DNA from: Candidatus Saccharimonadota bacterium
GTDB taxonomy: Bacteria; Patescibacteriota; Saccharimonadia; Saccharimonadales; Saccharimonadaceae
Direction: 5' to 3'
Assembly: GCA_009787015.1 (NCBI GenBank)
Contig: WRGU01000047.1
Location: 1-41,523, forward strand
DNA length: 41,523 bases
Of this stretch, positions 8,192 through 24,692 are shown in pieces; the first letter of the stretch is position 1, and every line of letters begins with the position of its first letter. A model generated the notes under the pieces. The model was not told the origin of the DNA and made no database searches. It saw only the letters and a program-made list of their open reading frames with translations. The translations under genes and the position numbers were made by a program.

Positions 8192-9763
8192 CTATTTTTT
8201 GTCGCATACTTGTTTGACGATTTCGCCAATCGGGGTAGAGTCGTAATCTTCGACGTAATTTCCGCTCGTATAACCTTCGTCGTATTCCAGTTTATGACTA
8301 TATCCTTCCGTGATCGCACCCCTTTGCATTCGGATGGCGCAACGGCTGATATTGGATTGCCTGTCGCCATCCGCCCACAGCACCTGGGTCGGGGCGACAT
8401 GGACTTTTTCCCCCACATTATGCAATATACCATCAGTATAGACCAGGGGAATACCGATATTCAGGGGGTGCTGCAACCAATGCAAAATACCATATTGTTC
8501 ATCTGTTTCAGTCTCTTGCACGCGCAATCCTTTGCGACCGAATTTCCGGTTGATTGCTTCGATCGTAAATCCCGCAACCATCGCACACTCGAATTGCAAG
8601 ATCTGCAACTTCTTCTCGTGTTCCAATATTTCCTCGTAGGACAGTTGATTCGGCAGGTCAGAAGCCGGCAAACAAGGCGAGTTGGAAAAAGGCGTAATAC
8701 CATAAACCAAACCATGGTTTTTCATGACATATTTTGACGTCGCTTCATCATCCGCGTCGGTCGTACCAGGCAGACCGGCGATCAACGACGTTGACCACAC
8801 GAATTGGGATTTCCTCTTGCGAATTTGTTTTAGCGCATCCTCGAGTTTGTCAAGCGTCCCTGGGCGACCAATTTCCGCCGCTTGACGCTCGCTGCCGGTT
8901 TCGATGGTCGAATGCATGCCGGTGATGGTGTTGGAATCCCTAATCGCTTTAACCAACTCCGGATAAAGGGTTTGCGGTGCGACAGAGAATAACGAAACTT
9001 GTTCAAAACCCAACTTATCCACCTCCTCAACCAATTTGTGCAAACAACGCTCGCCGTTGTCCTTGTATAGCCCGAGGCTCTGCCCGAACAACCGCAATGC
9101 CGTGATTTCCGGATGCGTCTCTCTTAATTCCTTTAGTTCGGCGACAGCGCGCTCCAGTGGCACACTGATCGATTTTGAGCTTTCCTTTTTGAGGTAATTA
9201 TTACAACAATACGTACAGCACATATCGCAACCAGTTTGCACGATGAAATCTGCTTTGAGTCTGCTAGTATCCTGTTCATGAAAATACCCAAACGGATCAA
9301 GTTCGGTAACCGGTTCGCTTGATTCCGGAAAAACCGTGTGCATCAATGTCGCGCATTCAGTATCGCCGCTAGCGAGAACGATTTCGGTGCCCTCCGGAAC
9401 ACCGGCATCCTTGCAGAAAGGTTGGTAAAAGTTTTCGCCGTCTTCGGTGTCATCTATCGCGCCAGGAATACCGAGAAAGATAACACTTTCTGGCAACCCC
9501 CCCCCAGATTCCCGCAGAATTTCGTACGCCTTTCGGAGATCATCATTCGCGATAGTGATATTATTCGGCGTCAAAAAAGATTTTGAAACAATCAGATGAT
9601 TAATGTGCGTCCCAGCAGGCGGCAAATTATTGCCATAACGTTCAGGCATCGTGTATAAAACGGCGCCGCGCACCGCCAACTCGCGCATCTCTCTAATCGA
9701 TTTATTGCGATGGTGCGGCGCACCTTCATTCGCACCAACCACCAAAATATTCGGCTTTTCCAT
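8192..9763 (-). CDS. Radical SAM protein (MTTase-like/unknown subfamily)
   Basis: GCDMCCTYCC contains CxxxCxxC; contains a G9 coding-strand tract. Confidence 0.75.
   Translation of the reverse strand: MEKPNILVVGANEGAPHHRNKSIREMRELAVRGAVLYTMPERYGNNLPPAGTHINHLIVSKSFLTPNNITIANDDLRKAYEILRESGGGLPESVIFLGIPGAIDDTEDGENFYQPFCKDAGVPEGTEIVLASGDTECATLMHTVFPESSEPVTELDPFGYFHEQDTSRLKADFIVQTGCDMCCTYCCNNYLKKESSKSISVPLERAVAELKELRETHPEITALRLFGQSLGLYKDNGERCLHKLVEEVDKLGFEQVSLFSVAPQTLYPELVKAIRDSNTITGMHSTIETGSERQAAEIGRPGTLDKLEDALKQIRKRKSQFVWSTSLIAGLPGTTDADDEATSKYVMKNHGLVYGITPFSNSPCLPASDLPNQLSYEEILEHEKKLQILQFECAMVAGFTIEAINRKFGRKGLRVQETETDEQYGILHWLQHPLNIGIPLVYTDGILHNVGEKVHVAPTQVLWADGDRQSNISRCAIRMQRGAITEGYSHKLEYDEGYTSGNYVEDYDSTPIGEIVKQVCDKK
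9497..9505. repeat. C9 tract inside radical SAM gene
   Basis: aaccccccccca in + strand; codes for GGG in LRESGGGLPES. Confidence 0.9.
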
Positions 9764-9823
9764 GATTTAGCACAATTATACACGATGCTCGCTATTTTGT
9801 CAATGTTTTTGATAAAAAGTATT

Positions 9824-9852
9824 GACTTTTTTACACAAGTGTGATACAATGG
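9824..9852 (+). promoter_or_regulatory. Promoter of RelA/SpoT-like gene
   Basis: TTGACT - 17 nt - TACAAT. Confidence 0.7.
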
Positions 9853-9859
9853 TAGTATA

Positions 9860-11317
9860 ATGGAGCAAAATTTACATAAATTCAACGATTATCAGCCCTA
9901 TCCCCATATAAAGATATCCGATGAAGCGCAAGCGGCAGTTGATCATTTCCAATCGCGCATCAAAGTTGGTCACGACAGAGAACGAATCGCTGCGGAAAAT
10001 CACGATACCGAACAAACAATGATGCTATTTCGTGATTTTTGCGGTGGAGATTTTCCCGATAACAGCCCCGTTTACGACGCCATAGCGCTAGTCGACATTC
10101 ACAAAGGTTTGCAGGAGCGCCTTCGTGAACGGATTGCGCATAGGGCGTTAAATGGTTACATCAAACCCGACGAACGCACCGAATACGTGTTTGGGCTACT
10201 CGATGATTGCGGCAAAGTCGACGATTTTTGGCAAAAACAATCCAGTATTTCGATAGAGGATATGTGCAATTTGCTCGGCACGGTCGATTTAGAAGCCATT
10301 CCGATCCTGGGCGCCAAAAGTTTAGCATTTATGTGTAACCGTATGCCATTGCGCGGTAACGATATTCAGGAGGTTAGTAATTCGCCGGAAATGCAAAACC
10401 AGATGGCACTCGCACAAACTTTACTGGCACCAGCGTGTGAACTGATTGGTTATGATGGTTTGGCGATGGCGCTGCAAAGCGTTGTCAGCCAAGCGGCAAT
10501 GCGACGCGATCGCCAAACTTATTTTATTGACAAAGCGAGAGAGGTCCTCGACCAATTACCCCCCCCCGAAGAATTACAAGAAGACATTACGCGTGTCATC
10601 GGTGGTCTATTAGATCATGATTCCATCAACGCCGAATCGTTCCAGGGCGGCGAGCGACACGGTATTTTGTTCGGTGAAGGATTATGGGATCGCGGCAACG
10701 ACTTGCCGGACGGACGTTTTGTCTATCGTCGGAAATCGACCGGATCGATCGCGACGAAAGTTCAGGATGATTATCGAAAGTATGGTCGCATTGAAACTCC
10801 GCGCGACATCGTCGGCATCACAATCATCGCCCAGGACGACAAAGAGCGATTGCGAATCTTCGGTCAAATGATCACAAATGCTGGTCGGGTTGATGATCAG
10901 AAGATAGGCAGCGCCAAAATCATCGGTTCATCCGATTTTATTGAACAAATGATTTCCGGAATTTCTGGAACATATGATGAAAATGCCGCAAAATTAGAAG
11001 CCCCCGTCGAACGAAATAATGGCTACCAAACTGCGAAAGTCTACATCAGGCGCAAAAACACCCCGTTCGAGATCCAAGTCACTACACGGCAGGAACGCGA
11101 TATGAATCGTTACGGCAGAACTGCGCATATTTTGTACAAAAAACCGAAACGGGGCGATAGTGCGGAATCTGGCGATCAAATCGACGAAAAAATCCTGGAA
11201 TTTATGGCGGATATTCATGATCGTCGCGAACATATCGGCGAAGCAGAACTCCGTCCGACCACTATTAACGCCAGTCGAATCCTAATCAGACAGTTGTCAC
11301 GCGTTGGTCATTATTAA
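9860..11317 (+). CDS. Divergent RelA/SpoT homologue (synthetase domain retained, HD-like region degenerate)
   Basis: YRRKSTGSIATKVQDDYRKYGRIETPRDIVGITII and NGYQTAKVYIRRKNTPFEIQVTTRQERDMNRYGRTAHILYK match RSH synthetase motifs. Confidence 0.7.
   Translation: MEQNLHKFNDYQPYPHIKISDEAQAAVDHFQSRIKVGHDRERIAAENHDTEQTMMLFRDFCGGDFPDNSPVYDAIALVDIHKGLQERLRERIAHRALNGYIKPDERTEYVFGLLDDCGKVDDFWQKQSSISIEDMCNLLGTVDLEAIPILGAKSLAFMCNRMPLRGNDIQEVSNSPEMQNQMALAQTLLAPACELIGYDGLAMALQSVVSQAAMRRDRQTYFIDKAREVLDQLPPPEELQEDITRVIGGLLDHDSINAESFQGGERHGILFGEGLWDRGNDLPDGRFVYRRKSTGSIATKVQDDYRKYGRIETPRDIVGITIIAQDDKERLRIFGQMITNAGRVDDQKIGSAKIIGSSDFIEQMISGISGTYDENAAKLEAPVERNNGYQTAKVYIRRKNTPFEIQVTTRQERDMNRYGRTAHILYKKPKRGDSAESGDQIDEKILEFMADIHDRREHIGEAELRPTTINASRILIRQLSRVGHY
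10559..10567. repeat. C9 tract inside RelA/SpoT-like gene
   Basis: attaccccccccc gaa; codes PPP in LDQLPPPEELQ. Confidence 0.9.
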
Positions 11318-12275: not shown

Positions 12276-12551
12276 ATGAATGAAAGTTTTAAACAGAAAA
12301 TTCAAGAATCTGGGCTAACACTTGAACAAACTCTATTTTGTGCCTATTGTGCGGAAAGTGGATATTGGGACAATGGTCTACCGACATATCTGAAAGATTA
12401 TAACTGTAATAAAGATCAATGCGGGGAGAAGTATTCGCCTGAACAACAGGCGGGTTGCATGGCGCTCAATCTGAGCTTTCGACGAGAACTCAAACAGGTT
12501 TCACTGGGCACATTAAAACAACAGGTTAACGAATGTTTTAATAATATGTAA
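12276..12551 (+). CDS. Small Cys-rich hypothetical protein between rplJ and rplL
   Basis: 91 aa with 6 Cys; fills the normally short rplJ-rplL gap. Confidence 0.65.
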
Positions 12552-24131: not shown

Positions 24132-24692
24132 ATGAGTAAAAGACATCGCAGTCCGGAAATACAAGCCCTACATCAACGTTCGGCACAGTTTAATCAATAC
24201 GCCGACATAAAAGTAAGTGAAAGAAGAGCGACAGAATTCTTTGAAACGAGGTACGCCAAACCCAAACCGCAACCCGAAATCACCCCCCCCCAGGTCGAAC
24301 AAACCGAACAAGAGCAGCCTCAACGCCCCGAACAAACCGCCATGGCGGAGTCGGCGTGCCGTTGCTTACTAACGCAGACTTATCATACCAAATATAGCAG
24401 CGGTGGAACGCCATACCAAACAACTCTCGCCGCAACTGCCGAAAGTATCGCGGATAACTGGAACATAACAATGTCGAAAGACGATCAATATATTTGGAAA
24501 TTAGAGTTGAAACATTGCTATGATGACTTTTCCCCAAGAGAACGTGACGAATTAATACTCGAGATGGAACATGATTCTCATAAAGTCAAGGAGACATGTA
24601 ATAAGTGTTCAGAGCCAGAACTCTGCAGTTGCCTGGCACCACGCGACGTGCGTCTTGGCATGCTGGTCGCAAGAACGATAATAGCGCAATAA
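24132..24692 (+). CDS. Hypothetical protein with C-terminal Cys cluster
   Basis: ETCNKCSEPELCSCLAPRD; contains C9 tract. Confidence 0.65.
   Translation: MSKRHRSPEIQALHQRSAQFNQYADIKVSERRATEFFETRYAKPKPQPEITPPQVEQTEQEQPQRPEQTAMAESACRCLLTQTYHTKYSSGGTPYQTTLAATAESIADNWNITMSKDDQYIWKLELKHCYDDFSPRERDELILEMEHDSHKVKETCNKCSEPELCSCLAPRDVRLGMLVARTIIAQ
24283..24291. repeat. C9 tract inside ORF 24132
   Basis: atcacccccccccagg; codes TPP in EITPPQVEQ. Confidence 0.9.

Follow-up and report, generated by a model that had tools for sequence, protein, structure and literature searches.

Phase variation through homopolymers in promoter spacers is known from porA and opc of Neisseria and from fim of Bordetella. 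In Campylobacter, the lengths of poly-G/C tracts peak at 9 (53%) and 10 (26%), strains carry 5-81 putative phase-variable genes each, and poly-C is on the coding strand in 5% of the tracts that lie in ORFs (PMC6321876). Here, we analysed poly-G tracts in a Candidatus Saccharibacteria genome, five of them in one stretch of 41,523 nucleotides, the whole of which is called the window below. Like the Campylobacter phasome, this set has a length peak at 9, dozens of tracts in a small genome and both ORF and intergenic sites; like the Neisseria and Bordetella spacer loci, it includes G/C runs between -35 and -10, where gain or loss of one base alters the spacing. The tracts also resemble KOPS (FtsK) and Chi in being G-rich and leading-strand polar at a similar density.

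The differences are equally specific. Unlike in Campylobacter, a quarter of the ORF tracts here have C on the coding strand, almost all of them are in frame, G follows the replication strand (in this genome, G000, and in G064, from another genus of the family) and T follows the tract. Unlike in Neisseria and Bordetella, many promoters are involved at once in this Patescibacterium, with a nearly fixed G9 and spacers mostly of 15-16 or 18-20 bp. Unlike KOPS and Chi, the tracts avoid conserved genes and concentrate in spacers, do not co-vary with the FtsK gamma domain and have weak polarity in some relatives. Three features set the tracts apart from the known cases, namely their polarity by replication strand, the T on their 3' side and the strong bias towards open frames. 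In the literature that we searched, no report described repertoires of phase-variable homopolymers for Saccharibacteria or for other Patescibacteria.

The window tracts and their two host genes

The first-pass annotation had placed two C9 tracts in the window, one inside each gene of a divergent pair with an intergenic region of about 96 bp. Both positions were confirmed, as was the intergenic region (96 bp, 9764-9859), and three further tracts were found, which read as C9, C9 and C11 on the plus strand (Table 1). The minus strand carries the G-run of every one of the five, with host genes in both directions. Overlapping C8 matches number 12 in the window, compared with a mean of 0.39 in shuffles, and 0 of 100 shuffles reached 12.

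Table 1. Coordinates of tracts, genes and promoters in the window and of the recurrent promoter regions elsewhere in the genome (for tracts, the strand is the one that carries G).
Feature	Position	Strand	Remarks
G9 tract, contig start	1..9	-	adjoins TTGACG -35-like element
Radical SAM protein, RimO/MiaB-like, 523 aa	8192..9763	-	Pfam Radical_SAM 2e-17
G9 tract (C9 on +)	9497..9505	-	codons 87-89, Gly-Gly-Gly, of radical SAM gene; then T
Sigma-70-like promoter, radical SAM gene	9775..9803	-	TTGACA-17-TATAAT, 12/12; spacer without G-tract
Sigma-70-like promoter, RSH gene	9822..9850	+	TTGACT-17-TACAAT, TG before -10; spacer without G-tract
RSH-like protein, 485 aa	9860..11317	+	Pfam RelA_SpoT 1e-9
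G9 tract (C9 on RSH coding strand)	10559..10567	-	codons 234-236, Pro-Pro-Pro; then T on -
G9 tract	24283..24291	-	in-frame C9 (ITPPQ) in ORF 24132-24692 (+)
G11 run, contig end	41513..41523	-	length uncertain: contig edge
Near-identical promoter regions, G000	C17:9462, C36:36, C44:22659, C8:1, C32:16121 (L083, L045, L062, L092, L049)

In the radical SAM protein, which is RimO/MiaB-like by sequence, CxxxCxxC begins the SAM domain (residues 174-341). The protein has five paralogs in the genome; the closest, C8_2939, carries no tract and aligns with a gap at the corresponding place, and another (C51_40550) has its own G9 at a different position. An ortholog of the gene was sought in 100 relatives and none was found. 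The N-terminal part of the RSH-like protein is helical and is followed by the RelA_SpoT synthetase domain (residues 290-429), in which R290, K292, D316, E404, Q406 and H423 are invariant in nine homologs. We take these residues to be of active-site type, relying on general knowledge of RSH enzymes as to which are catalytic. The predicted structure (pLDDT 77, pTM 0.80) resembles B. subtilis Rel, and the best structural matches of the model were the catalytic regions of Rel and SpoT (E 4e-6). By its predicted domain and modelled fold, the protein belongs with the RSH (RelA/SpoT homolog) synthetases and is a putative (p)ppGpp synthetase. In the RSH ortholog of the same genus (G001, L223), the tract position reads DIRDPEQV compared with DQLPPPEEL here, and there is no G/C run. 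Downstream of the RSH-like gene are the genes for ribosomal proteins L10 (11662-12210) and L7/L12 (12563-12940), with a small ORF (12276-12551) between them.

Neither gene-pair tract interrupts its reading frame, and the assembly thus shows both genes in the ON state. A one-base slip leads to a stop 16-17 codons later in the radical SAM gene and 17-19 codons later in the RSH-like gene, in each case upstream of the catalytic domain. Translation would then end after about 103 codons in the radical SAM gene and about 252 codons in the RSH-like gene; with truncation before each catalytic domain, each gene would switch ON or OFF independently. The pair had been proposed as a switchable alarmone/radical-SAM module, and for this we found no support, since its tracts are two of about 55 in the genome and the radical SAM gene lacks an ortholog among the 100 relatives. 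The RSH ortholog is tract-free. Neither tract is a conserved locus, and absence from relatives was one of the findings by which the annotation's proposal was to fall, although contingency loci are commonly not conserved. Slipped-strand phase variation, which had been suggested for these two genes, is the best general reading of the tracts. A special switch for the two genes was rejected because such tracts occur throughout the genome and conservation of the pair is lacking; the pair is ordinary as a pair, its members being adjacent accessory genes with a tract in each by coincidence.

Genome-wide tracts in coding sequences and promoter spacers

We scanned all 51 contigs of the genome (857,924 bp, 95% complete), of which the window is contig C47. 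A scan of genome contigs with the RSH-like protein gave no match; RpoB places the genome in Candidatus Saccharibacteria, with 83% to a reactor MAG. There are 58 G/C runs of 8 or more, at about 55 sites. The number of runs declines from 391 at length 5 through 51 at length 6 and 12 at length 7 to 4 at length 8, and then spikes at exactly 9 (46 runs), with 2 runs of 10 and 4 of 11; no A/T run exceeds 8. The base 3' of G9 is T in 38/41 cases, compared with 42% after G5, and the same preference is found in coding tracts (22/24). The tracts exceed chance and have the slippage-prone homopolymer length of contingency loci. Furthermore, of 100 contig ends, 11 fall within a run at least 8 long, compared with 0.06 expected, which indicates that the tracts break the assembly. 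One contig-edge run is 26 long; either reads fail at poly-C ends or the lengths are mixed.

Of 295 genomes in the family, 76 contain the exact tract with its T, which is rich in a few genera, absent in many and variable within a genus; a few tract-rich members are also found in other families of the order. The length peak recurs in other genera: G064 has 6 runs of length 8, 17 of length 9 and 3 of length 10, and half of G020 (genus g20) has 31 of length 9 and 12 of length 10.

Coding tracts lie mostly in genes of narrow distribution. A homolog in G064 was found for 1/24 coding-tract genes compared with 348/699 other genes (p=3e-6); these are lineage-specific genes, although conserved proteins would be expected to avoid Gly/Pro runs in any case. 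Poly-C is on the coding strand in 6/24 coding tracts of G000 and, in addition, in ORF 24132-24692 of the window. Among the clear coding tracts of five genomes, 26/28 keep the reading frame and the other 2 do not; the apparent OFF frames are in G064 (C4:86828, G8) and G120 (L300, G10), and a short ORF that ends at its tract in G000 (C38:12045) is a likely third OFF case. It is this bias towards ON frames that weighs most heavily against phase variation. Two G000 paralogs of unassigned family (L034; C48:15718-16785 and C48:17906-18928) carry G9 at an equivalent loop (SGGGSVYEE and NGGGSSYDE).

Tracts are found between good -35 and -10 elements in about 28% of cases in G000, 35% in G064 and 26% in G020, compared with 3-5% for G5-6 runs. 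Spacers that hold a tract of exactly 9 measure 15, 16, 18 or 19 bp, and none measures 17 bp. In G064 the usual layout is -35, N9, G9, TATAAT, which gives 18 bp; spacers with G8 measure 17 bp and the single one with G10 measures 19 bp. Near-identical promoters of G020 (TTGACT-N6-G9/G10-TA(C/A)ACT) differ by one G. Differences of G9 versus G10 among paralogous promoters occur in both G020 and G000; between species, including those of g20, too few sites could be aligned for site conservation to be compared. By inspection, 9 of 12 promoter-tract genes in G064 look secreted or surface-located, and those in G000 include large repeat proteins (FISUMP, delta-60/SBBP). Judged from their positions, in ORFs or promoter spacers, the tracts sit where a change of length would alter expression, as expected of contingency loci. 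Near-identical promoter regions of the form TTGACYCAT-G9/10-TAGGTGATATAAT lie on different contigs of G000, some upstream of large surface proteins, and may recombine with each other.

Probable slipped-strand switching and its alternatives

The tract set probably represents genome-wide poly-G contingency loci, that is, slipped-strand phase variation in a Saccharibacteria episymbiont. Points in its favour are the length peak at 9 shared with other genera and with Campylobacter, the enrichment in promoter spacers and accessory genes, the one-G differences among near-identical promoters, the apparent OFF frames, the places of truncation in the two window genes, the gap in the tract-free radical SAM paralog and the absence of MutS in 29/30 relatives. 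Replication slippage would be expected to add or remove one G; at spacer tracts, a slip would change how far apart the -35 and -10 lie, mostly for surface or accessory genes, and at ORF tracts it would put accessory genes into another frame. We infer variation of tract length within the population, with expression switching accordingly. Several findings count against phase variation: the share of in-frame tracts is higher than free switching predicts, the share of poly-C on the coding strand is above that of Campylobacter, and the RSH ortholog of G001 lacks the tract. Moreover, phase variation predicts neither the strand polarity nor the preference for T.

A different account, which we consider unlikely, is that the tracts are an unselected mutational by-product, in which leading-strand G-runs, in the absence of mismatch repair, drift to about 9 and persist only where they are tolerated, in spacers and dispensable genes. 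MutS is indeed absent in 29/30 relatives, the tracts lie in accessory genes, and a leading-strand bias would be natural for a replication-coupled process. However, MutS is missing from tract-rich and tract-poor relatives alike, and its loss was therefore rejected as the difference between them. Drift would also have to be reconciled with A/T runs that show no such excess, with G8 being rarer than G9, and with the fixed spacer layout of G064 and the concentration in surface-gene promoters, which suggest selection.

A further possibility is that G9T is a leading-strand polar DNA signal for a chromosome-processing protein (KOPS/FtsK or Chi-like), tolerated in spacers and accessory genes. In G000, G9 is on the G-rich strand in 31/32 cases, compared with 68-71% for G4 and G5, and tract pairs within contigs are on the same strand in 37/38 cases, compared with 60% of gene pairs. 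The polarity persists in nearly all contigs after the skew is corrected for gene direction and is found with coding tracts alone (agreement 16/19); the two tracts of the dnaA contig, which lie to the left of its skew minimum, are leading-strand tracts. Tract pairs in G064 agree in 47/51 cases. G8 is the commonest among the 8-mers that are at least 90% polar in both genomes, T comes next in 90% or more, the density is about one tract per 15-20 kb, and FtsK with a gamma domain and a UvrD-PDDEXK protein are both encoded. However, the strong origin-to-terminus polarity of G000 and G064 fades in genus g20, where it is weaker in G020 (68/90) and G096 (62/81) and absent in G120 (21/35), so the polarity is real in this genome and is not a rule of the family. 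Nor does FtsK gamma, compared across 30 genomes, track tract content: it is near-identical in G198 (tract-bearing) and G002 (no tracts), and its canonical form is found in both tract-rich and tract-poor genomes. Avoidance of conserved genes, strong enrichment in spacers and changes of tract content within a genus also argue against such a signal, which is in our view quite improbable. A KOPS role, which the polarity had suggested, was disfavoured after the FtsK gamma comparison and GGGNAGGG counts. We are decidedly doubtful of a combined reading, by which GGGGGGGGGT would be a leading-strand-polar signal for some replication or recombination protein in some Saccharibacteria, with switchable surface-gene promoters built on it and switching tied to fork direction.

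Two separate observations concern these subjects. A 27-kb stretch of G020 contig C13 (L278, L279) holds eight tracts of mixed orientation, unlike most other contigs, and is perhaps a mobile or inverted region. The FtsK gamma of G000 (L097:1625-3859, minus strand) differs strongly from the canonical form, which most relatives have retained.

The G-tract might instead be a promoter element or a regulator site that defines a G-tract spacer regulon, with no role in slippage. Spacer tracts have G on the non-template strand in 33 cases and a C-run in 3, and the position next to the -10 is constant in G064 and G020, which favours this reading. Yet half or more of the tracts lie outside promoters and near-identical promoters differ by one in tract length, and we regard this explanation as very unlikely. 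That the tracts are poly-G errors of sequencing or assembly, an idea to which the contig ends inside long runs lend some colour, is hardly credible, because interior tracts keep open frames and the same length peak and 3' T recur in independent genomes.

Implications for Saccharibacteria

If the poly-G tracts switch as contingency loci, these episymbionts would, like mucosal pathogens, randomise the expression of surface and accessory genes; this would bear on host switching and phage escape and would also explain the assembly breaks at poly-C. In addition, replication-strand polarity that is independent of gene direction is a testable feature of simple-sequence tracts.
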